A stretch of 26,368 bases of DNA from Candidatus Mcinerneyibacteriota bacterium (GCA_016937175.1 JAFGWL010000016.1:1-26368); one strand, 5' to 3'; positions 158 to 22,165 are shown, counted from the stretch's first letter. Numbers and translations are program-made. Notes: generated by a model from the letters alone, not told the origin.

Positions 158-185
158 TTGACAGAATAGCACTTTGCCTTATACT
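158..185 (+). promoter_or_regulatory. Sigma70-type promoter of the membrane-protein operon
   Basis: A perfect TTGACA -35 box (158-163) is followed by a 16-nt spacer and a TATACT -10 box (180-185). Transcription would begin around 192, leaving a leader of about 33 nt with an AAGGAGG site at 214-220 before the ATG at 225. The surrounding 1-224 stretch is strongly AT-rich compared with the genes and holds nothing else I can identify. No further strong promoter is evident up to 7571, so this one may serve nine genes. Confidence 0.65.
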
Positions 186-224: not shown

Positions 225-1355
225 ATGAAACGGCTGCTGTTCACTGTCATTCTTATCTCCGCCGCCTTTTTTTCGTTATCCGCACAGGAGAGCGAAGGGA
301 TCTTTGCAGTGGAGGATGTGAAATACGATTCGGGCGGGTCCGTGGACCTGTCCTGGAATCTGCCGGGGCTGCAGGAGTCGCAGACCCTGGAGATCTACAG
401 AGTCTTTCATGGAGAAGAAGGGAAGATCATTCAGAGCAAAGACCTTTCCGGGCGCTTCACTGATCGGAATCTGAACTATAAGGATAGCTATTCCTATGTC
501 CTGCGCGTTATGAATGAAGACGGAACCATCGCAAAGGAGATCTCGGCGGGGCCTGTCCTTCCGGGAGCAGCCTGGTTCAGTATGAAAAGGGCCATTGTCT
601 TAGTCGCCCTTATCATCATCTTTTACCTGATCATCCACTATATCCGGGCCTCCCGAAGGGGGATCGAGTTTCCCATCCGGAAGATCCCCGCGCTGGAATC
701 TGTGGATGAGGCCATCGGACGGGCTACTGAGATGGGTAAACCCATCCTCTTTGTTCCGGGGATCATGGACATCGATGACGTCCAGACTGTAGCCGGGATC
801 ATCATCCTTGGAGAGGTGGCGTCCAAGACGGCAGCCTATGATGCGACATTGAATGTCCCGGTCTCCCGCTCCATGGTCATGTCCACGGCGCGTGAGACGG
901 TTAAAGAGTCCTATCTGAAAGCCGGACGGCCCGATGCCTTCAATGAGAACATGATCCACTATCTCACCGATGACCAGTTCGGGTATGTCTCCGGTGTGGA
1001 CGGGATCATGGCCCGTGAAAAGCCCGCAGCCATCTTCATGCTGGGGACCTTTTACGCCGAGAGTCTTATCCTGGCTGAGACAGGTAACTCCATTGGGGCC
1101 ATCCAGATCGCGGGAACGGCCATGCCCTCCCAGCTTCCCTTTTTTATTGCTGCCTGCGACTATACGCTCATCGGAGAAGAATTGTACGCTGCCTCTGCCT
1201 ACCTGAGCGGTCAGCCCCATATGCTGGGTGCCCTCAAGGGGCAGGATATGGCCAAACTCTTTATTATGATCATTCTCATAGTCGGGACGGTTCTGACGCT
1301 TATTTCCCCGGCAGTGGGAGCCTGGATCATCAACGTCTTTAGCAATATCGGCTGA
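225..1355 (+). CDS. Membrane-anchored Fn3-like protein with conserved domain of unknown function (DUF6754-like)
   Basis: A 376-residue protein. Residues 1-20 form a signal peptide or N-terminal anchor ending in LSA-Q. Residues about 27-110 look like one fibronectin type III beta-sandwich (a YSYVLRV strand near 89-95). A membrane segment follows at about 123-140 with basic RASRRG after it, then a soluble domain (about 145-340), and a hydrophobic C-terminal segment at about 345-372. The arrangement Fn3, membrane helix, conserved domain matches the family I recall as DUF6754, which has no assigned function; I could not confirm this by search. The start is well supported by AAGGAGG 4 nt before the ATG and by the promoter at 158. 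It is the first gene of a tightly spaced cluster with three more membrane proteins and a TPR lipoprotein, so a shared envelope complex is inferred. Confidence 0.8.
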   Translation: MKRLLFTVILISAAFFSLSAQESEGIFAVEDVKYDSGGSVDLSWNLPGLQESQTLEIYRVFHGEEGKIIQSKDLSGRFTDRNLNYKDSYSYVLRVMNEDGTIAKEISAGPVLPGAAWFSMKRAIVLVALIIIFYLIIHYIRASRRGIEFPIRKIPALESVDEAIGRATEMGKPILFVPGIMDIDDVQTVAGIIILGEVASKTAAYDATLNVPVSRSMVMSTARETVKESYLKAGRPDAFNENMIHYLTDDQFGYVSGVDGIMAREKPAAIFMLGTFYAESLILAETGNSIGAIQIAGTAMPSQLPFFIAACDYTLIGEELYAASAYLSGQPHMLGALKGQDMAKLFIMIILIVGTVLTLISPAVGAWIINVFSNIG

Positions 1356-1369
1356 CAGGAGGAAGAGAT

Positions 1370-2029
1370 ATGTTTTGGAAAAGACAATTTCCCATAATGA
1401 TCACCGCCTTTGTCGCCGTGGTCATGATCGTTGCTTATTTTATTCCCAAACCTGGGTTCGCAGGTACCCGTGATAACTTACAGCAGTGGTTTTTGATTGT
1501 TGTCACGTTTACCATGGTTTTAGGCCTTTTGAACCTCTTTTTTGTGAGCCTGCATAAGGCCCGCAAAGGCCGCAAAGAGGACCGGTTCTATAACTGGGTG
1601 ACTATTGTGGCCTTACTCGGGACCATTGCAGCAGGGTTTTTAAAAGGCGGGATCAACAGCCCGGCTTTCGATTTTATCTTCAATTATGTCTACATCCCGC
1701 TGAGCGCCACGATCTTTTCGCTGCTGGCCTTTTATGTGGCATCGGCCTCCTTCCGGGCCTTCCGGGCCAAGTCGGTCATGGCGACCATCCTCCTCATCAC
1801 GGCTTTTATCGTGATGCTGGGACGCGTCCCGCTGGGAGACTGGGTCACCGGCTGGGCCCAGGGGACTTCTCTGGATTTCCTCTATCTGCCCAACATCACC
1901 AACTGGATCATGGAAGTGATGAATATGGCAGGGCAGAGAGCGGTCCTCATGGGGGCGGCTTTGGGGCTCATCGCCACGGGCATCAAAATCATCCTGGGTA
2001 TCGAACGTTCCTACCTGGGTGGAGAATAG
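1370..2029 (+). CDS. Six-helix membrane protein of unknown function
   Basis: I do not recognise a named family. The 219-residue protein has about six predicted membrane helices (roughly 8-24, 40-62, 75-92, 105-127, 136-152, 190-209), a basic loop RKGRKEDR near 66-72 and a short polar tail ending IERSYLGGE. AGGAGG at 1357-1362 precedes the ATG by 7 nt, and only 14 nt separate it from the previous gene. It ends in TAG. The next gene is in the same reading frame and begins after three codons, so readthrough would give a fused protein. Its place between two other membrane proteins suggests an inner-membrane subunit of the same complex; that is inference. Confidence 0.75.
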   Translation: MFWKRQFPIMITAFVAVVMIVAYFIPKPGFAGTRDNLQQWFLIVVTFTMVLGLLNLFFVSLHKARKGRKEDRFYNWVTIVALLGTIAAGFLKGGINSPAFDFIFNYVYIPLSATIFSLLAFYVASASFRAFRAKSVMATILLITAFIVMLGRVPLGDWVTGWAQGTSLDFLYLPNITNWIMEVMNMAGQRAVLMGAALGLIATGIKIILGIERSYLGGE

Positions 2030-2038
2030 GGGGGTATT

Positions 2039-2878
2039 ATGTCATTTCTTGAAAAACTCGACCGGCTGGACCGCCGGATTATTTTTCTCATCATCGGGAT
2101 CGCTGTTTTTGTCCCGCTGCTTTTCCGGGTCCCCATCAAAGTGGTGCAGTCTCCTATTGTCCAGGATATCTACGAGGGGATCGAAGCTTTGCCTGAAGGA
2201 AGCATGGTCCTGCTCTCCTTCGACTATGACCCCTCCACCCTGGCGGAGCTGCAGCCTATGTCAGAAGCGGTGATCAAACATTGCATCCTGAAAAAGCACA
2301 GGATGGTCTTTATGGGGCTCTGGCCCCAGGGGCCGAAACTGGCCCAGGGGATCATGGAGACTGTGGCTCCTCAATACGATCTTCAATACGGCGTGGATTA
2401 TGTCAATCTCGGGTATAAGACGGGCGGTATGGTCGTTATCAGCAGTCTGGGATCGGCCATCACAGATCCCTTTCCCACAGATATGAACGGGGTTTCGCTC
2501 CGTAATCTGCCCATCTTTGACAACGTCAAGACACTCCGTGATTTTGATTATGTGGTCTCCATGTCGGCAGGCGACCCGGGGATCAAACACTGGGTCATGA
2601 TCGCCAAAGACCGGTTCAAGGTCCCGGTGGGGGGCGGGGTGACAGCGGTGAGTGCTCCCGCTTTCTATGCCTATTACAACTCGGGACAGCTGGAAGGCCT
2701 CATGGGCGGGTTGAGAGGGGCTGCCGAATACGAGACCCTCATCGACACTCCCGGAACGGCTTCTTACGGTATGAGTGCCCAGAACTGGGCCCACCTGATG
2801 ATCATTCTCTTTATAATCATCGGGAATACCACCATGTTGATCCTCAAACGAAAAAAAGAAAAAAGTAGGGTAAGGTGA
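2039..2878 (+). CDS. Bitopic membrane protein with large alpha/beta domain, unknown function
   Basis: A 279-residue protein with an N-terminal membrane helix (about 14-30), a soluble domain of about 220 residues and a second membrane helix near the C-terminus (about 252-271) followed by a very basic tail, KRKKEKSRVR. By the positive-inside rule both ends should be cytoplasmic and the middle domain outside the membrane. That domain alternates hydrophobic strands (SMVLLSFDY, RMVFMGLW, GMVVISSLG, YVVSMSAG) with helices, like a Rossmann-type fold, and has a Gly-rich GGLRGAAEYE near its end. No catalytic motif is recognisable. The ribosome binding site is a G-run (AGGGGGG) ending 4 nt before the ATG. 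Confidence 0.75.
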   Translation: MSFLEKLDRLDRRIIFLIIGIAVFVPLLFRVPIKVVQSPIVQDIYEGIEALPEGSMVLLSFDYDPSTLAELQPMSEAVIKHCILKKHRMVFMGLWPQGPKLAQGIMETVAPQYDLQYGVDYVNLGYKTGGMVVISSLGSAITDPFPTDMNGVSLRNLPIFDNVKTLRDFDYVVSMSAGDPGIKHWVMIAKDRFKVPVGGGVTAVSAPAFYAYYNSGQLEGLMGGLRGAAEYETLIDTPGTASYGMSAQNWAHLMIILFIIIGNTTMLILKRKKEKSRVR

Positions 2879-3555
2879 TGACGATGACATTTGCTGGAGC
2901 AATCGGAATTTTTCTGGCAGGAGTGCTGACCCTTGCCATATTCAGTTTCCTCTACAAGGATAACCCGGTCTACAAGTTTGCCGAACATCTTTTTGTAGGG
3001 ACTTCGGCCGGGTATTGGTTTATCTATAATGTGTACAATATCTTTGTTCCCAATGTCCTGGTCGCCTGGCGTGAAGCCGGAGGATTCGCAGACTACTTCA
3101 ATGTGGCTCTTCCGGTTCTCCTCGGTTTCTTCATGCTCATGCGTCTGATCCCGTCAGTCTCCTGGATCTCACGCTGGGCCATGGCCTTTTCCGTGGGGAT
3201 GACGGTGGGATTCAATACCATCACAGAGCTGCAGACCAATATCCTGCAACAGATCGGAGCCACCCTGAGCCCCTTTGCCAGCCTTCATTTCAACAACGGC
3301 GGCCTGGTCGCTTCGGTGAACGCGATCATAATTCTGCTTGCCGTTCTGGCTGCTTTGGTGTATTTTTTCTTTTCCAAGGAGCATACCGGAGGATACGGCC
3401 ATATTGCCAAGGTTGGGATATGGGTCCTGATGATCACGTTCGGAGCTTCCTTCGGATACACGGTTATGGCGAGGATTTCGCTCCTGATCGGCCGTGTGCA
3501 GTTTTTACAGACGGATTGGTGGGTTGCGATTAAACATATCATCGGCCTTGGTTGA
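2878..3555 (+). CDS. Polytopic membrane protein of unknown function
   Basis: About 225 residues with six or seven predicted membrane helices and short loops; no family recognised. The stop of the preceding gene overlaps this start (TGATG). Three starts are possible: GTG 2875, ATG 2878 and ATG 2884. GTAGGG sits 7 nt before 2878 and TAAGG 8 nt before 2884, so the choice among them is open. The overlap with its neighbour implies translational coupling and fixed stoichiometry with the bitopic protein upstream. With the two preceding genes it makes a likely inner-membrane core. Confidence 0.72.
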   Translation: MTMTFAGAIGIFLAGVLTLAIFSFLYKDNPVYKFAEHLFVGTSAGYWFIYNVYNIFVPNVLVAWREAGGFADYFNVALPVLLGFFMLMRLIPSVSWISRWAMAFSVGMTVGFNTITELQTNILQQIGATLSPFASLHFNNGGLVASVNAIIILLAVLAALVYFFFSKEHTGGYGHIAKVGIWVLMITFGASFGYTVMARISLLIGRVQFLQTDWWVAIKHIIGLG

Positions 3556-3580
3556 TGGAAAAGAAAGAGAGAGGTAAAGT

Positions 3581-4822
3581 ATGAAAAAGTTAACTCTTAT
3601 TGTCATCCTGATCATAGGTGTGGCGGGAACATTCCTTCTGTCAGGGTGTGCCGGGACACAGGAAGAGGACCCTTTCGGGGATACCGCCATCGTGGAGACG
3701 ACACCTCCCTATGTTGTGGCTTATAACAAAGGGTATACACAGGCTGCAGCCAGAAACTGGGCGGGAGCCGTTCCTTTTTACGAGGAAGCCGAATCTCATC
3801 TGATGAAGCTCTCTGAAGAGCAGCTCAAAGAGCCCGGCACAGAGAATATCTATCAGAAGACCCTGATGGGACTGGCCCTGGCCTACGGAAATATGGGAAA
3901 TATCGGAAAATCCTCCGGCTATTTCAAAAAGTATATCAACCGCTGGCCTGCAGACATCAACGGATATCTCAACTATGGGGCCATCCTGGAGAAGAACGGG
4001 CAGTCTGAAGAAGCCTTTGCCCAATACACCAAAGCCATGAATGTCAATCCTGAGAGTGCCGTAGCTGAATTTGCCCTGGCCAATATTTACCGACAGGACG
4101 GCCGCCTGGACGATGCCATCACATACTATAAAAAAGGGTTGGCCAAAGACCCCGGATTCCAGGACGGAAACGGCTGGTTCCAGCTGGGGAAGACCTACGA
4201 GGAAAAAGGGGATTATGACGGCCAGATCAAAGCTTACGAAGAGATGGCCCAGGTCCGGCCCGATGACTGGCAGGCCTATTTCTACCTGGCCGATGCCTAT
4301 CTGACCAAGGGGATGAAAGTAGGCGCCGATAAAGCGCGGCTGACCAGCGCTGACCGTGAACTGCGGATCTCTTACTATGACAAAGCCATTTCCACAGATA
4401 AAAAGGGGTTGAGCATCAAGCCCGATTCTGCCCAGATCATGACTCATCTGGCCAGCTCCCTGATCCGTAAAGCTGAGATGTATAACAAGGGAACTGCCCA
4501 GTATGCTAAAAATGCCGAAGAAGCCATAGGAGTCCTGGAGCAGTTTACAACAGTTTATCCGGACAATGAAAAAGGATATGCCCTGCTGGCCGATGCACAG
4601 CAGAAACTCCGCAATTTCACAGGAGCCATTGCCAACGCCCGGAAATCTCTTGAGATTCTGGATAATCCCTATGCCCATTCGATCCTCGGCGATGTCTTCT
4701 TTATTCTTGAGCGGTGGCAGGAGTCTAAGGCTCATTACCAGGCCATTGCCAACAATCCCCAGTACCCCTATGTGAGGGGTCGTCTGGAAATCATCGAAGC
4801 CAGGATACGCGGAGAGTATTAG
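3581..4822 (+). CDS. TPR-repeat lipoprotein
   Basis: A 413-residue exported lipoprotein. A basic-hydrophobic signal peptide (1-22) ends in the lipobox LSG-C with Cys23 as the lipidated residue; the following Ala-Gly does not resemble a classical inner-membrane retention signal, so an outer-membrane location is likely but unproven. The rest is tetratricopeptide repeats, clearest around residues 125-245 (NGYLNYGAILEKNGQSEEA, AEFALANIYRQDGRLDDA, WFQLGKTYEEKGDYDGQI, AYFYLADAYL), with further helical repeats to the C-terminus (about 325-410). TPR lipoproteins usually act as assembly or docking factors in envelope machines. Following four membrane proteins at 25-nt spacing, it is probably the periplasmic or outer-membrane partner of that complex. 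It ends in TAG with a backup TGA four codons later. Confidence 0.85.
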   Translation: MKKLTLIVILIIGVAGTFLLSGCAGTQEEDPFGDTAIVETTPPYVVAYNKGYTQAAARNWAGAVPFYEEAESHLMKLSEEQLKEPGTENIYQKTLMGLALAYGNMGNIGKSSGYFKKYINRWPADINGYLNYGAILEKNGQSEEAFAQYTKAMNVNPESAVAEFALANIYRQDGRLDDAITYYKKGLAKDPGFQDGNGWFQLGKTYEEKGDYDGQIKAYEEMAQVRPDDWQAYFYLADAYLTKGMKVGADKARLTSADRELRISYYDKAISTDKKGLSIKPDSAQIMTHLASSLIRKAEMYNKGTAQYAKNAEEAIGVLEQFTTVYPDNEKGYALLADAQQKLRNFTGAIANARKSLEILDNPYAHSILGDVFFILERWQESKAHYQAIANNPQYPYVRGRLEIIEARIRGEY

Positions 4823-4833
4823 ACCGGAGCTTT

Positions 4834-6087
4834 ATGATTTCTTTTGATTTTTCCAATGTCCTCAAGGCCAATATCGGAGGGGAATTCGGGCTCAGCCCGA
4901 ACTTCCCCGACGAGTATAATGAGATCATCCGGAAAGGATATCTGAAGATAGAAAACGGGCGGGGGGAATACCCCTACCATTTCATGGAGCTCCCCTATGA
5001 AGACCATGAAGAGATCAAGAAGTACTCTGATATCCTGGGGAAGTACAAGAACTTCGTCGTGGTGGGGATCGGCGGTTCAGCGCTGGGGGCCTATGCCCTT
5101 TTCAACGCCCTGAAACATCAGTATCACAACCTTATCTCCGACCGGAGGATCTTTTTTATCGATAATTCTGACCCTGCGACGATCCTTAATGTCTTTGACG
5201 TAGTGGATCTGAAGAACACCCTTTTCAATATCATCACGAAATCGGGGAGCACTGCCGAGACCATGTCGGCTTTTTCCCTGATCTTCAACATTTTGAAGGA
5301 GGAGGGGCTGCCTCTTAACGATCATCTTGTCGTGACCACGGACCGGGAAAAGGGAGACCTGGTCAAGATCGCCGGAGAGTATAATCTTCCGACCTTCACC
5401 ATTCCCGAAGGAGTCGGCGGACGCTACTCCCTCTTTACACCGGTCGGGCTTCTGCCTGCCCTCTATATGGGAGTCGATCTGGATGCGCTTCTGGAAGGAG
5501 CCAAAGATGTGGATTCCTATTGGAGAAGGACACCAGCTGAGGAGAACCCTATTGCTGTCAGTGCCCTGGTCAATTATCTCTATCATACAGAGCAGGCCCG
5601 GAATATTCTGGCCATGATGTGTTATAAAGATGCTTTGAGGGGGATGGGACTCTGGTATCAGCAGCTCTGGGCCGAGAGCCTGGGAAAAAAGTATGATCTG
5701 GACAGCAACCTGGTAGAGACGGGAGCGACTCCGGTCGTACTACGGGGAGCTACGGACCAGCATTCCCTTCTGCAGCTCTTTATGGAAGGGCCCAACGACA
5801 AACTCTTTGTCTTCTTTGATGTCAGAAACCCCGACAGGGACAGAAGATTCCATATCGGTTCCTTGAGTAAGTATAAGAGCCTGGCCTATTTTGACGGGAA
5901 AAGCTCCCACGACCTGATCACAGCCGAGATGTCAGGAGTCAAATATGCCCTGGCCTTCAACGGGAAACCCAATTACACGGTTTCTCTTGAATCACTGGAT
6001 GCCTATCATCTGGGTGCGCTGATCTATGCCCTTGAGCTTCAGACGGTCTTTACTTCGACTCTCTACAATGTCAATCCGTTTGATTAG
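4834..6087 (+). CDS. pgi: Glucose-6-phosphate isomerase, cut short by an in-frame TAG
   Basis: Glucose-6-phosphate isomerase interconverts glucose 6-phosphate and fructose 6-phosphate in glycolysis and gluconeogenesis. Visible are the SIS-fold phosphate loops GGS (80-82) and KSGST (136-140), a complete first PGI signature at 192-205 (EGVGGRYSLFTPVG), a likely catalytic Glu281 in AESLGKK and catalytic His310 in DQHSLLQLF. The frame stops at TAG (6085-6087) after NPFD, where the family continues with Gln-x-Gly-Val-Glu-x-x-Lys. The next 43 codons encode exactly that tail, up to TGA at 6219, for a total of 461 codons, the usual bacterial length. As written the 417-residue product lacks the active-site Lys and should be inactive. 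A sequencing error, a recent CAG-to-TAG mutation or amber suppression are the options. Weak ribosome binding site GGAG 4 nt before the ATG; 11 nt after the TPR gene. Confidence 0.93.
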   Translation: MISFDFSNVLKANIGGEFGLSPNFPDEYNEIIRKGYLKIENGRGEYPYHFMELPYEDHEEIKKYSDILGKYKNFVVVGIGGSALGAYALFNALKHQYHNLISDRRIFFIDNSDPATILNVFDVVDLKNTLFNIITKSGSTAETMSAFSLIFNILKEEGLPLNDHLVVTTDREKGDLVKIAGEYNLPTFTIPEGVGGRYSLFTPVGLLPALYMGVDLDALLEGAKDVDSYWRRTPAEENPIAVSALVNYLYHTEQARNILAMMCYKDALRGMGLWYQQLWAESLGKKYDLDSNLVETGATPVVLRGATDQHSLLQLFMEGPNDKLFVFFDVRNPDRDRRFHIGSLSKYKSLAYFDGKSSHDLITAEMSGVKYALAFNGKPNYTVSLESLDAYHLGALIYALELQTVFTSTLYNVNPFD

Positions 6088-15465: not shown

Positions 15466-17147
15466 AACGGCTCCACATGCAGGATTTCGCCATTGCAGAT
15501 GATGTCACTCTTGAATTCAGCCGGGGGTTCAATATCATCACAGGGGAGACGGGAGCGGGGAAATCCATCATCTTGAATGCCATCGCCATGGCTATGGGGG
15601 ACAGAGCTGACCAGGAGATGATACGCCTGGGTTCTGAGGAAGCCGTCGTCGAGGCTCTTTTCACCATGCATCCTCTTCTGGCGTCCTGGCTCAGGGAGAA
15701 GGGATTCCCCCTGGAAGACGTCTGCATCGTCAAAAGGATCGTAAAACGGAATGGGAAAAACAGGGTATTCATCAACGGGGCTTCGGCTACGCTGTCCCAG
15801 CTGAAAGAGATAACCGAGCGGCTTATCGACCTCAATAATCAGAGCGAGCATCAGATGCTCATGGATCCGTCGAGCCACCTTCTCTTCCTCGACTATTTTG
15901 GAATGCCCGGCAAGGCTATGGAAGATTACCAGTCCCTGTACAAAGAACTTTATCACCTTACTGAAAGGTATGAGCATTTTAAACGTGAGGAGAGGGAGAT
16001 CCGCCGCAAGATCGATACTTATCGTTTCGAGGTCAGCGAGATAGAAGCTGTTAATCCCCGGCCGGGGGAAGACGAGACTCTCCTGGAAGAGGTGAAGATC
16101 CTGGAAAAAGCCCGGTCCATCATGGAGCATACCGCCTTTATCGACAGGCTCCTCAACGAGAATGATGATTTTACCGGAGCTCTTGAAGAGGTCGCAGCCC
16201 GCCTTGAAAAGCTGCGGGGGATCGGCGATACCATGGACAGCCTGGTGGAAGACCTTCATGCCCATCTTGATGGAATGGGAGAAGCTTCCCGGGCTCTCCA
16301 GCGCTATGTAGAAGGAATGGAGCTGGATGAGGAACATTTGGATGAAGTGAACCGCAGGCTGGCTGACATCGAAAAACTCAAAAGAAAATACGGGGATTCC
16401 ATAGAAGATGTCCTGGCCTACGGTAGCCGGATAAAAGAGGATCTCGCCGTTTATGAGGAGATGACTTTCGATGCCGAGTCTTTCAGCCGTAAAATTGAAG
16501 AACTGGGTTGTCAGATAGAAGAGAAGGATAACGCTCTGTCGGCTCTACGTCAGGAAGCAGCCCGGGATTTTTCCAGCGCTATAGAGGCAGAGCTGAAGGA
16601 TATCGGAATGGAGCAGGCTCGCTTTGAGGTCAGGTTTTTGCCGCTGGACCAGGGCCTGGCTTTTCATGAAAAATTTTACGGCCCCGCCGGAAGCCTGCGA
16701 GCAGAGTTTTTTATCGAGACCAATCCGGGAGAAGGAAGCCATCCCCTTGTGAGGACGGCCTCCGGAGGTGAACTGTCACGGATCCTCTTTGCCCTGAAGT
16801 CTGTGATCGGACGCCATCTGGATATCCAGTGTATGATCTTTGATGAGATAGACAGCGGGATCGGCGGGGCTGTGGCAGGGATGGTCGGGTCTAAACTGGC
16901 CAGGCTGGCGCAGAAATATCAGCTGATCGTGATCACACATCAGCCCCAGATCGCAGCTCTGGGAGAGCGCCATTTTCACGTGGAAAAGGTCTATGCCGGT
17001 GAGAGGACCGTCACACGGGCCCGTGTCCTTGAGGGAGAAGAGATCGTCGAAGAGGTCGCCCGGATGATCTCCGGGGCACGGGATGATCAGGAAGCTTTGA
17101 ATGTCGCCCGGCGCATGCGCCGACAGGAAGAACCGGAGAGAGCATGA
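15459..17147 (+). CDS. recN: DNA repair protein RecN
   Basis: RecN is an SMC-like ATPase that acts at double-strand breaks. The 562-residue protein has Walker A GETGAGKS at 29-36, a long charged coiled-coil region (about 150-390), and the C-terminal ABC signature SGGELSR (about 434) followed by Walker B and D-loop MIFDEIDSGIGG. The length and order are standard. It starts 7 nt before the nadK stop ends and overlaps the next gene by ATGA. Being tied by overlap to a giant outer-membrane gene is unusual. Confidence 0.95.
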   Translation: MLERLHMQDFAIADDVTLEFSRGFNIITGETGAGKSIILNAIAMAMGDRADQEMIRLGSEEAVVEALFTMHPLLASWLREKGFPLEDVCIVKRIVKRNGKNRVFINGASATLSQLKEITERLIDLNNQSEHQMLMDPSSHLLFLDYFGMPGKAMEDYQSLYKELYHLTERYEHFKREEREIRRKIDTYRFEVSEIEAVNPRPGEDETLLEEVKILEKARSIMEHTAFIDRLLNENDDFTGALEEVAARLEKLRGIGDTMDSLVEDLHAHLDGMGEASRALQRYVEGMELDEEHLDEVNRRLADIEKLKRKYGDSIEDVLAYGSRIKEDLAVYEEMTFDAESFSRKIEELGCQIEEKDNALSALRQEAARDFSSAIEAELKDIGMEQARFEVRFLPLDQGLAFHEKFYGPAGSLRAEFFIETNPGEGSHPLVRTASGGELSRILFALKSVIGRHLDIQCMIFDEIDSGIGGAVAGMVGSKLARLAQKYQLIVITHQPQIAALGERHFHVEKVYAGERTVTRARVLEGEEIVEEVARMISGARDDQEALNVARRMRRQEEPERA

Positions 17148-20100
17148 GAAATACCTGTTTAGTGATACTACTCTTTTTTGTTACGACTTTTTCCGTATCG
17201 GGGGTGTCTCTTCCGCCTCCGTTCTATTATGGAGCCGAATACGAGTCCCTTTCGGCTGATTTTGAATTTGACCCGGATATCTGGAAGAGTTCCACTGATA
17301 CCGGAATCGCAACTCCCCGGGAAATGATGGCAGAGGGGCTTGTCCCCGACATTAAGATCGCGAAGGATTCGACGATCAGGATCTCCGGCAGCAAGAGGAT
17401 CAGCTTCGAGATCGCGCGGAAGACTTATCCCAATGTCTCAGATATCGCCGATTCCAATTACTACCAGTCGTCAGGATCCATCGAACCTGATATCAATCAG
17501 CAGCTTCAGGTAAAAGTGGAAGGTGTGATCAAAAACAGGATCTTTATCGATGTGGATTATGACGATACCAAAGAGATGGAGGACAGGGAACATATTTCTG
17601 TGGTCTACAAAGGGACAGAAGATGAGATCATAAGGGAGATCGCATTGGGAGATCTGAATCTCAGCCTTCCCAAAACGGAGTTCATCTCCTTCAACAGAAC
17701 ACTGTTCGGGGCCAGGGCGGCTCTTGTCATGGGCCCCTATTCCTATTATGGCCTTATTACCAAAGAAGAAGGTGTCACCGGCAGTGATTCCTTTACCGGG
17801 TTCAGTGATATGACCCAGAACAGTATCAATAACACGGCTTTCCTCACCTCCCCTGTCCATCTCTCTTTACAGCAGGGGATCCCGGGGATCGCCCTTCCCC
17901 TGAGAGCCGGAGAGGTCTACCTCTATTACGATGACGGGGTCTTCAATGAGGAGGATGAGGGGCGTATTCAAGCCGGCGAGTTTTATTTTGAACCGCTGAC
18001 TCCCATCACAGATTATGTGGTGGACTATGACAAGGGAGTTATAGTCCTGAAGAAGACCCTGTCCTCCACAGGAACGGTGGCCATGATCTATACCGACGCC
18101 GACGGTATCACCTACGGGAACCCTGACCCCGCGTCCTTCTCTTACGGGACACTGATTTATTCCAGACGGAATGAGACGGAGTATCAGCTGTTGCGTCAAC
18201 AGTTCCAGCAGAAGAATATCTACTCTCTTGGGCAAAACGACCTGGATATCAACGGGCTGACCCTTGAGATCATGGACCTGGGCAATAAGACGGAGATCAC
18301 GGTTACGGCTGATGATTTAAGCCAGAAGACCTACAGTTATATGTATCTTTTCGGAATCGACCGTGACCGGGACGGGACAGCGGACCTGCCGTTTCTGAAC
18401 CTGGCAGACGGGTATCTCGATTTTTCTTCCTATGAGAACGGGTTTATAGCATTATCGACACTTCAGCCCTTCAATACGCAGCAGTTCCTGTCTGAAAGCG
18501 AGCCTTCGGGAATCGTTCCCGACCTTCCCCCTTATCTGGAAGCTGTACGGCAAGAGATAGGTGATACCCCCTTTGTGGCCCTGATGGAAGCCCTGGATAA
18601 CAGCGGGATCTACGAAGAGGGGTCTACAACGCCGCGGAAGTATATGATCTATACCGAGTATTTTTCCCCCCAGCCCGTTTTTAACCTGGGACGGTTCAAT
18701 ATCATCGAAGGAAGTGAAAAGGTCGCTGTCAACGGGGAGGTCCTCTTCCGGGGACGGGACTATTCCATTGATTATCTTACGGGTACTGTCCAGATCCTGA
18801 ATGAAAGTGCAGTCACTGAGAACGCGGCTGTAACCATTACTTTTGAGTACCGCCCGCTCATGATGTCACAAAGCAAGACCCTCATAGGTAACCGCGTAGA
18901 GTATAACCCCAATGAGCATTTGAGCGTGGGAGCCACCTACATGGATGAGTGGATGCCCGAGTCCGATGATGAGACTATCCCCCGTCTGGGAGATGAGACG
19001 ACGCGTCACAGCGTCTACGGTGCCAATATCAACTATACCGTCAATGAGAAGGATTATAATATCCTGGCCAAGGCGGAGGCAGCCAAAAGCCGGGTGAATC
19101 CCAATACATACGGGATGGTCTATCTGGAAGATATGGAGTCCAGCGAACAGGTCAAGAGCATCTCTTTGTCGAAAAGCTCCTGGTTTATCGCTTCTCCTCC
19201 GGAGGGCTTCTCCCAGGAGAACCGTTTTATTCCCACATACACTATTTCGGACGGCTCTGTTTTTGATTCATACAACTATTTTTCCAATGACTATGTCGAA
19301 CTGAGAGAGATCAACTCCAATTACGGAACCGGTGACAATATGATCTTAAAATTCAGACAACTACCCGGAGTGGGGGCCTTTACCTCCTATGCGACTATTG
19401 TCTCTCAGAACGGGATGGACCTCAGCGACTACAAACAGCTGGAGATCTGGTATAGGGTCAATACGGGCGCCACAGGAACCATTCATCTTGATATGGGGTA
19501 TATCAGTGAAGATGCCGACAGCGACGGAACCCTGGATACAGAAGATACCGACGGGAATATGACTTTGAATGCCGGAGAAGACACAGGGTTTGCCTTTGAC
19601 CTTCTGGGAACCGTGTACCCGATCGGGACACTCAACGGGACACTGGACAGCGAAGACCTGAACCGGAACGGCATCTTGAACGAGAGCGAGGCTGTGGTCC
19701 ATTACTCCTTCGACCTGGGAGAGGGGGAGTCTCCCGAAGAGAATGAGTGGCGTGTCCTCACCGTCCCGCTGGATTCTGCAGCTGATTTTGATGAGAGTAT
19801 TCTCAAAGTCGTCAAGAATATAAGGATCTGGGGAGAGGGCTTCAGCTCGGAGACGGAATTCGCCCTGGGACGGCTGGCGGTAGTGGGAACTGTCTGGGAG
19901 GTGGATGAAGTCTATCCTCCGGGAAGTACGCTGGAGATCAGCTCTATCAGCCAATATGACGACCCCAATTATATCAATCTTCATCATGAAGTGGACAAGG
20001 AGACCGACCGTGTCCTGGAGGATGTTTCTTTGGTCATGGATTTTGACATGATCCCCGACGGTACGGATGCAAGTCATGCCTTTTCCCGGAAAGACTTGGG

Positions 20101-22165
20101 GACAAGCCGGGATTTCACCCTGTACAACAAGCTAAGGATCTACTATTTCCCCAAGGAGACAAACGGGGACTATTCCTTTACTGTCCGGCTCATGACGAGC
20201 CAGGATAACTATTTTGAAAAAGAAGTCTCTGTCCTTCCCGATGATCTCGGGGCCTGGCATTATCTGGAGTTCGATATGGGGCGGATCGATGATCCTGCCC
20301 AGGGTGCGACTCTGGTGGGTGAACCGAACATCAAAAATATCAACTATATCCTCATCGGAGTCTCCGGAGATAACGGGCCCTACGACGGAGTCCTCTATGT
20401 CAACGATATCCGTCTGGTCGATTCCAATATTCAGGAGGGAATGGCCAGGTCGGCCACAGTCCAGGCTAACTACAAAAGCTTCGCCGGGGCCTATTACCAG
20501 TTTACCGACAGGGACGGGAAATTCGCTCCCATCGGCCAGTCTCCCGGGGAGATAAATACCTCGAGCCATACCTTCCGGGGGAATGTCAATTTCGCCAAAT
20601 GGTTCTGGGAAGAAAGCGGCATCAATCTGCCGGTCAATTTGAATTATTCCAGCAGCCTGAGTGAGACCGATGCCAGTGTTTTGTCTGGGGTGACCTATCG
20701 GTCCCGGGGGAAGACAGAAAGCGATACTCTGGGAGTGATAGCCAAACTCTCTAAAACTGAATGGCCTACCCTCTCCTATGCCTATAACTCCTTTGAACAG
20801 ACCGTGGAAAATGAGACGAGACCTTTGTATCAAAAACGGATCAGCCACGATATCGGCCTGAGTTACCTCCCTCCTGATGCGGAATTCCTCCTGGTAAACT
20901 GGCTTCCCGATTCGTTTAATTTCAATTATAAAAGGGATAAAAGTGATTACCTGAACCTGATTGAAGAGAATAAGAATACCGATTCTATGAAACTGACCGA
21001 AGATTGGCGTCTCCAGGTCAACTGGGTGCCTTTTAACGGATTAAGGTCGGCCTTCTCCTATAATCTCAAAGACCAGTGGGATGAGATACAGGATCTCTAT
21101 ATCAACAGGAGTCTTGTCTCCTCCTTTGACAATTCGTTGGACAAACGTCTATGGATCATGGATTTTTATGCTAAATACCGGGCGCAATACAGAGAATCGT
21201 GGAGTTATGAGAGGGCCATGAACGAGGGGAATTACTCTTTCAAGACCTTTGACCTGTCCAACCTCTATGAGACAAGGATGACTCTTCATCTGATCGAGTA
21301 TGCCAGAATCATTCCTCTGTTTCAGAGAAAACTCGACCTTACCTCTTCGTTTAAACTTACAGACCGCTATTATTTTGATATGACACCGGGAAAATCCGGA
21401 GCGGGGGTCTTCTTCGGGTCTCTGGCCAGCCTGGATGTCGAGGGGGATCCCGACCAGGAGACATCGACCCAGGTGGTCTCTCTGGAGACTAAAACCGAGT
21501 TTGTCGACGGGGTCTCTTTTAACCTGGTATATGACTGGACGACAAAAGATACCGATAATGCAGGGAATATCCAGGAGGAGGAAGTCATCAACTGGCCCGA
21601 TGCTTCGTTCACCCTGAACACGTTCAGAATGATCCCTCTGCTCAAGAGATTCGATAAATTTGTCGTCTCCCACTCTCTCTCCCTGAGATACAGTGAGAAG
21701 GAGACCATGACCTACGGGTATTACTCCCGGACCACCCGGAACCAGTCCCTCTTCGGCGAATGGCGCGTCTCCTGGAGCGGTATGCTTACCACGAGGTGCT
21801 ATTATAAAAAGAGTTATCAGGAGAATATTACCACGACTTATGACCGGGACGAGGAGCGTAAGGAAGGCTATCTTGAGTTCAGTTATCGGGTAAGAAATGC
21901 AAAACTGCTCAAAGGGCTTTTCCGGAAAAGTGAAAGCAAAGTAAATACTCTTTTGACATTAAACGGAAATCTTCGTTATATCGGCCAGCAGTACAAAGTG
22001 GGGACAGACTATCACTCGTTTGAATCCAATTTCTCGGGGAAATACGATTTCGGGACGGGGATGACCCTTTCGGCTCTGTTGGGTTATAATCTCTACAGAA
22101 GTGAGATCCCCACAAAGGATTATAATGAGATCAAATTGGGAGGAGAGTTTGAGATCCGTTTTTAA
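17144..22165 (+). CDS. SprA/Sov-like giant outer-membrane protein
   Basis: A 1673-residue exported protein. SprA (Sov) is the 36-stranded translocon of the type IX secretion system in Bacteroidota; homologues elsewhere are mostly uncharacterised. A signal peptide (about 1-20) is followed by stretches that match my memory of SprA: YKGTEDEIIREIALGDLNL (about 154-172), YLTGTVQILNESA (about 543), TLIGNRVEYNP (about 579), GANINYTVNE, and LEDMESSEQ with SSWFIASPP (about 660-685). Asp-rich EF-hand-like loops lie at about 790-815 and 834-850. The last 500 residues alternate aromatic beta-strands and end in FEIRF, a C-terminal Phe beta-signal typical of outer-membrane barrels. Known SprA proteins are longer (over 2000 residues). 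No other type IX gene is in the window. It is embedded by overlaps between recN and a secreted CBM9-like protein. Confidence 0.82.
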   Translation: MRNTCLVILLFFVTTFSVSGVSLPPPFYYGAEYESLSADFEFDPDIWKSSTDTGIATPREMMAEGLVPDIKIAKDSTIRISGSKRISFEIARKTYPNVSDIADSNYYQSSGSIEPDINQQLQVKVEGVIKNRIFIDVDYDDTKEMEDREHISVVYKGTEDEIIREIALGDLNLSLPKTEFISFNRTLFGARAALVMGPYSYYGLITKEEGVTGSDSFTGFSDMTQNSINNTAFLTSPVHLSLQQGIPGIALPLRAGEVYLYYDDGVFNEEDEGRIQAGEFYFEPLTPITDYVVDYDKGVIVLKKTLSSTGTVAMIYTDADGITYGNPDPASFSYGTLIYSRRNETEYQLLRQQFQQKNIYSLGQNDLDINGLTLEIMDLGNKTEITVTADDLSQKTYSYMYLFGIDRDRDGTADLPFLNLADGYLDFSSYENGFIALSTLQPFNTQQFLSESEPSGIVPDLPPYLEAVRQEIGDTPFVALMEALDNSGIYEEGSTTPRKYMIYTEYFSPQPVFNLGRFNIIEGSEKVAVNGEVLFRGRDYSIDYLTGTVQILNESAVTENAAVTITFEYRPLMMSQSKTLIGNRVEYNPNEHLSVGATYMDEWMPESDDETIPRLGDETTRHSVYGANINYTVNEKDYNILAKAEAAKSRVNPNTYGMVYLEDMESSEQVKSISLSKSSWFIASPPEGFSQENRFIPTYTISDGSVFDSYNYFSNDYVELREINSNYGTGDNMILKFRQLPGVGAFTSYATIVSQNGMDLSDYKQLEIWYRVNTGATGTIHLDMGYISEDADSDGTLDTEDTDGNMTLNAGEDTGFAFDLLGTVYPIGTLNGTLDSEDLNRNGILNESEAVVHYSFDLGEGESPEENEWRVLTVPLDSAADFDESILKVVKNIRIWGEGFSSETEFALGRLAVVGTVWEVDEVYPPGSTLEISSISQYDDPNYINLHHEVDKETDRVLEDVSLVMDFDMIPDGTDASHAFSRKDLGTSRDFTLYNKLRIYYFPKETNGDYSFTVRLMTSQDNYFEKEVSVLPDDLGAWHYLEFDMGRIDDPAQGATLVGEPNIKNINYILIGVSGDNGPYDGVLYVNDIRLVDSNIQEGMARSATVQANYKSFAGAYYQFTDRDGKFAPIGQSPGEINTSSHTFRGNVNFAKWFWEESGINLPVNLNYSSSLSETDASVLSGVTYRSRGKTESDTLGVIAKLSKTEWPTLSYAYNSFEQTVENETRPLYQKRISHDIGLSYLPPDAEFLLVNWLPDSFNFNYKRDKSDYLNLIEENKNTDSMKLTEDWRLQVNWVPFNGLRSAFSYNLKDQWDEIQDLYINRSLVSSFDNSLDKRLWIMDFYAKYRAQYRESWSYERAMNEGNYSFKTFDLSNLYETRMTLHLIEYARIIPLFQRKLDLTSSFKLTDRYYFDMTPGKSGAGVFFGSLASLDVEGDPDQETSTQVVSLETKTEFVDGVSFNLVYDWTTKDTDNAGNIQEEEVINWPDASFTLNTFRMIPLLKRFDKFVVSHSLSLRYSEKETMTYGYYSRTTRNQSLFGEWRVSWSGMLTTRCYYKKSYQENITTTYDRDEERKEGYLEFSYRVRNAKLLKGLFRKSESKVNTLLTLNGNLRYIGQQYKVGTDYHSFESNFSGKYDFGTGMTLSALLGYNLYRSEIPTKDYNEIKLGGEFEIRF

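Follow-up and report, generated by a model that had tools for sequence, protein, structure and literature searches.

A DUF6754 gene quartet and its co-occurring MutL-type ATPase: a shared inner-membrane system of putative function

What do the first genes of this window, the whole stretch of 26,368 nucleotides from a Candidatus Mcinerneyibacteriota bacterium (GCA_016937175.1, JAFGWL010000016.1:1-26368) analysed here, make together, and do all of them belong together? Five ORFs lie on the plus strand at 225-1355, 1370-2029, 2039-2878, 2875-3555 and 3581-4822, with gaps of 14 and 9 nt between the first three, an overlap of 4 nt between the third and fourth, and 25 nt before the fifth, exactly as a first, sequence-only reading had described them. 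The first four are referred to as A, B, C and D, and the fifth codes for a TPR lipoprotein. All five had been taken as one undescribed, envelope-spanning machine behind a strong promoter. A promoter-like site (TTGACA-N16-TATACT, 158-185, plus strand) does stand about 40 nt upstream of gene A, with 11 of 12 consensus matches, but the region has no more such sites than shuffled sequences do (6 found, 5.7 expected); what speaks for this one is therefore its position and its close match, and a promoter is plausible at this place.

Gene A (225-1355) is a full member of PF20539 (DUF6754), a domain of unknown function in Pfam, which it matches with 400.8 bits against a cut-off of 27 (E 2.6e-120). The protein is predicted to consist of a signal peptide or transmembrane (TM) helix, an extracytoplasmic Fn3 domain (residues 25-115), a TM helix (120-144), a Rossmann-like domain (154-329) and a C-terminal TM segment (331-360), and its AlphaFold model has a mean pLDDT of 92.6. 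The Fn3 domain, already suspected from the sequence, is confirmed by its fold match to FN3tt (Z 11.1, 85 residues, rmsd 2.0), and the best fold match of the Rossmann-like domain is Sir2 (Z 11.7, 140 residues, rmsd 3.4). A Foldseek comparison of A with the PDB gave seven matches, mainly Fn3 proteins and multidomain chains at high rmsd. The charge bias points to a cytosolic location of the DUF6754 domain, and the placing of the Fn3 arm on the extracytoplasmic face of the core is supported. Across 109 quartets, A has 47 near-invariant residues, all of them at residue 152 or later, so that the cytosolic domain is the conserved working part. The arm ahead of the membrane helix, Fn3-sized in most quartets, ranges from absent to about 670 residues, and in 6 of the 109 fewer than 60 residues precede the helix; the arm is thus dispensable.

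For the other three membrane proteins no such entry was found. Gene B (1370-2029, plus strand) encodes about six TM helices with the N-terminus inside, gene D (2875-3555, plus strand) about six to seven, and gene C (2039-2878, plus strand) two TM helices around a Rossmann-like domain (residues 36-240), which the charge bias places outside. The membrane topologies are consistent with the hydropathy of the alignments and with the positive-inside rule, D being the least clear. The model of C (mean pLDDT 95.7) gave MT0777 as the best fold match of its ectodomain (Z 10.8, 140 residues, rmsd 3.2), and Foldseek found no PDB match with E below 1e-3. The DUF6754 domain and the C ectodomain share the general Rossmann-like fold with Sir2, CODH epsilon, RCK and others, at a sequence identity of about 10%; this fold is of a very common type and says nothing of function. 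Single sequences of B, C and D gave nothing above chance in Pfam or NCBIfam, and their 19-member alignments gave no Pfam match, the members being scanned singly, and no solved structure in a profile search, in keeping with the earlier statement that known transport, secretion and pilus families are not matched by sequence. As regards RnfA/D/E- or NqrB/D/E-like membrane subunits, B and D match no Pfam family by sequence. Profile comparisons of B with D and of A with C showed no homology.

Conservation across phyla, a test set beforehand, speaks for a unit of the four genes A-D. A scan of genome contigs for DUF6754 yielded at least 563 relatives and at least 79 loci, found in Fermentibacteria, Zixibacteria, Cloacimonadota, Stahlbacteria/WOR-3, Neomarinimicrobiota, Eisenbacteria, Latescibacterota, Coatesbacteria, Planctomycetota and an Armatimonadetes record, with the order A-B-C-D in nearly all of these loci. 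DUF6754 occurred in 13 of 41 genomes, and the copies examined had B, C and D beside them as a quartet. In total, 109 intact quartets were collected from many candidate phyla, rarely in the order B-C-D-A and up to three in tandem, with median intergenic gaps of 10, -1 and -1 nt. Of 109 A genes followed by more than 3 kb of sequence, 94 had B, C and D found directly; the others were resolved by tblastn, two of them as permuted B-C-D-A, except at three loci: L074 has A alone, in L068 the second quartet is cut short, and in L112 an insertion interrupts the quartet. In genome searches, profiles of B and of D each hit 19 of 78 genomes, precisely those with A, and C was present in 92 of 94 genomes with A and in 2 of 262 without it, both by weak matches. 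The recurrence of A-B-C-D over so many lineages is far beyond chance.

The quartet is often present more than once, with 196 DUF6754 copies in 102 genomes (mean 1.9; two or more in 49 genomes; maximum six). The genome of the window itself has three, namely the one at 225-3555 and two in B-C-D-A order on contig C34. In a tree of the 109 concatenated quartets, the tandem positions 1, 2 and 3 of Zixibacteria and their allies fall into three separate clades, which indicates that quartets were copied as units and then differentiated while the set was kept. The four genes have correlated pairwise distances (0.80-0.86), which agrees with inheritance of the quartet as a unit without proving it. With regard to a possible role in anti-phage defence or as a phage module, no quartet was found in plasmids, PHROG gave no match, and the two weak matches in PADLOC were both to a small neighbouring protein, S137, discussed below.

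The fifth gene does not share this conservation. The TPR lipoprotein (3581-4822, plus strand) is real, but it is not supported as a fifth member, because only 3 of the 41 genomes, each from the window's own taxonomic order, have a full-length counterpart, and no such gene was seen beside quartets outside that order. It is tied as closely to the next gene as to the quartet; this neighbour encodes a glucose-6-phosphate isomerase (4834-6087, plus strand; PF00342, E 5.3e-42) and follows the TPR gene in the window's order only. The five-gene unit is therefore reduced to A-D, for which the proposal of an undescribed inner-membrane core is borne out.

The commonest neighbours of A are instead a MutL-type ASKHA ATPase (PF13941) and a protein for which we coined the label E (375 aa, beginning MAHAYTPGLKV), often directly upstream of A. 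In several phyla the order S151-S137-MutL-E-A-B-C-D recurs. Its two leading genes code for small proteins, S151 for one in the membrane and S137 for a charged, helical one; in other phyla S137 stands directly ahead of A even without MutL. This cytoplasmic half (E, the MutL ATPase and S137) was absent from the sequence-only reading and is encoded elsewhere in the window's genome, where S151, S137, MutL and E lie together on contig C68 (L126:7689-11554), apart from the quartet.

Among 386 genomes, E was found in 98 of the 102 with DUF6754 and in 0 of the 284 without it (Fisher p 1e-87), a functional association of unusual clarity. MutL was present in 97 of the 102, compared with 13 of the 284 (p 1e-69); these p values treat genomes as independent, and although most come from different families, shared ancestry inflates them. 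Of the 13 MutL proteins in genomes without DUF6754, 9 are of the short GlmL-length form. S137 follows the same pattern, in 16 of 19 genomes with A and 0 of 59 without. E is missing from four genomes with A, and MutL from five; among these five is one that is about 100% complete and has three quartets and E. Several genomes encode a MutL-E fusion. A shared system of quartet, E and MutL is thus well supported.

E can be divided into a barrel-sandwich N-terminal part, a conserved middle part and a KOW/SH3-like end. The first of these weakly resembles the N-terminal domain of RnfC and NqrA (best E 2e-5), which are peripheral subunits of membrane complexes; the E of the window's genome stays under the cut-offs (RnfC_N 21.2 bits against 25.6, NQRA_N 19.3 against 25). 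Apart from this, no Rnf or Nqr subunit was recognised here, nor was any Fe-S or flavin motif seen. The ATPase belongs with the MutL/GlmL family, having intact ASKHA phosphate and adenosine motifs, and the protein on C68 scores 433 bits with PF13941, over its cut-off, but remains below the NCBIfam cut-offs for GlmL (240 against 475), Or-4 (231 against 600) and glmL_fam (176 against 204 bits). It differs from the family in its tie to the membrane quartet and in its length of about 605-650 aa, with a C-terminal extension that a classical-length relative lacks.

How might these parts work together? A-D are probably four subunits of one inner-membrane complex, of which B and D would form the bulk of the membrane core, with A turning its highly conserved Rossmann-like domain toward the cytosol and its optional Fn3 arm outward, and C presenting its Rossmann-like domain to the outside. 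Because the quartet is almost always accompanied by E and the ATPase, it is probably an energy-driven machine that connects the cell interior with the space outside the inner membrane. We see an even chance that it is an ATPase-coupled complex, in which A-B-C-D is driven or gated by MutL through E. The cytosolic module on the complex would comprise the C-terminally extended MutL/GlmL-type ASKHA ATPase, E as an adaptor and S137. MutL would bind and hydrolyse ATP, and the conformational change would pass from MutL to E, which may dock on A at the DUF6754 domain, and then through B and D to the C ectodomain, which would bind or release a ligand. If a ligand is handled on one face by the C ectodomain and on the other by the DUF6754 domain, as we infer, small-solute transport becomes the likeliest task, and the outcome would be that a small solute crosses the inner membrane in a process driven or gated by ATP; transport as the task is nevertheless a tentative first guess.

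Full-length E occurs about once per genome, whereas quartets number one to six, which suggests a shared energising pair, so that one MutL-E pair may serve several quartets of differing specificity. ECF transporters are comparable in this respect, as one energising module, with its ABC ATPases, is common to several membrane partners, the S-components. The likeness is limited to this ratio of about one E to 1-6 quartets, since neither the ABC ATPases nor the S-components of ECF transporters are seen here. The boldest form of the model, a new class of primary translocator in which a MutL-family ASKHA (actin/Hsp70-fold) ATPase powers, via a barrel-sandwich adaptor, several interchangeable four-subunit complexes with Rossmann-like domains on both faces, is doubtful. 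To our knowledge, MutL/BadF-type ASKHA ATPases are accessory or activating proteins and are not known as pump motors, which counts against the ATPase-coupled complex in general.

The common neighbours of the quartets showed no substrate theme. TldD/PmbA-like genes (6 loci), ExbB/TolQ-like genes (9 loci) and TrkH/TrkA with an ABC-2 transporter (Cloacimonadota) were considered as functional clues and rejected as too lineage-bound. Similarly set aside were genes ahead of S151 for nickel-pincer (LarE-like) and DUF151-like proteins, linked at only 2-3 loci, and KDO synthesis genes beside the HTH-MutL-E fusion described below, which are confined to the window's genus, the neighbours of other fusions being unrelated.

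Two other explanations are unlikely. The first is a relay for sensing or regulation: the state outside would be read by C and the Fn3 arm, and the quartet would pass it to the DUF6754 domain, E and MutL, which would regulate genes or the activity of enzymes. In the genus and order to which the window belongs, a MutL-E fusion carries an XRE-type HTH at its N-terminus, so that a MutL-E unit probably acts at DNA there, and the ligand-sized Rossmann-like domains of A and C on opposite faces would suit a sensor. However, no HTH was present at the sequence starts of the fusions in the other genomes examined, and a relay needs fewer than two conserved polytopic subunits. The second, to which we give the same low probability, is a membrane-bound enzyme or redox complex, in which the DUF6754 and C domains would hold substrates or cofactors and MutL would repair or activate the complex with ATP. 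GlmL/BadF-type proteins are thought to repair or activate their partners in this way. With its 47 near-invariant residues, the cytosolic domain of A is conserved to an enzyme-like degree, Sir2 is the best fold match of that domain, the relatives of MutL are named after B12-dependent mutase systems in NCBIfam, and E begins with the RnfC/NqrA-like part. On the other hand, the fold likeness is of a very common type, B and D have no conserved cysteine/histidine pairs for metal or haem, and the common neighbours of the quartets included no recognisable B12-dependent mutase or other B12 enzyme.

That the quartet simply belongs to a known family of transporters or secretion systems is quite improbable: B and D are polytopic, such families diverge fast, and searches of Pfam, NCBIfam and PDB sequences can miss them, but neither single sequences nor 19-sequence profiles gave a match. 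Least probable is the envelope-spanning machine of membrane core, Fn3 arm and outer-membrane TPR partner, for although the TPR gene lies close downstream, in the same order in two further loci (L041 and L028), and most quartets have an Fn3-sized or longer arm, the arm is absent in some quartets, the TPR partner is missing beside every other quartet seen, and with this lipoprotein confined to one order the idea loses its only outer-membrane candidate, no conserved one having been found.

We thus return to the ATPase-coupled complex as the preferred reading. The architecture of A-D with E and MutL is new as far as found, and its function is putative; we know of no described system with the same set of parts. 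DUF6754 has no mention in the 5.39 million open-access papers searched, PF13941 had no match there either, and GlmL and MutL returned nothing useful. No database entry was found for three of the four membrane families or for E, and the remaining family is the domain of unknown function. The set is nonetheless carried by about a quarter of the sampled genomes (102 of 386), mostly of different families. What was an orphan gene cluster thereby becomes a testable system of defined parts, with Planctomycetes, of which cultured species exist, among its carriers. If the MutL ATPase drives the complex, this would add a role for ASKHA ATPases beyond those known.

The genes that adjoin the quartet of predicted inner-membrane proteins A to D differ among loci. 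A PmbA/TldD-like gene stands beside it at L024, L027, L042, L044, L053 and L057, loci that belong to the window's order, to Zixibacteria and to Coatesbacteria, and in Stahlbacteria/WOR-3 (L092, L096, L108, L062) D is followed on its 3' side by a DUF4388 protein and more small conserved genes, then by ExbB/TolQ-like genes. The quartet itself is split in Neomarinimicrobiota TS1B10-2 (L112:5561-11908), where a 6.8-kb insert of four ORFs parts gene A from B and C. C-like matches (E-value ~1e-25) occur in genomes G095 and G233, both of one family and both lacking DUF6754, the domain of A; these proteins are possibly a distant relative of C in a different setting.

Elsewhere in the window, a 1673-aa frame with a single, N-terminal TM segment and then a 723-aa frame (17144-22165) are possibly envelope-assembly genes.

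The window's genome also encodes, on contig C8 (L127:7878-10925), an XRE-type HTH, the ATPase MutL and the barrel-sandwich protein E in one frame, adjoined by kdsA/kdsD-like genes. MutL-E fusions of ~950-1010 aa, apparently without the HTH, occur in other genomes among unrelated neighbours. Genome G009 (locus on C33, L140:8983-10104), with completeness rated at ~100%, gave no match to MutL and contains three quartets, E and the small helical protein S137; there, E may function either independently of MutL or together with an ATPase that escaped recognition.
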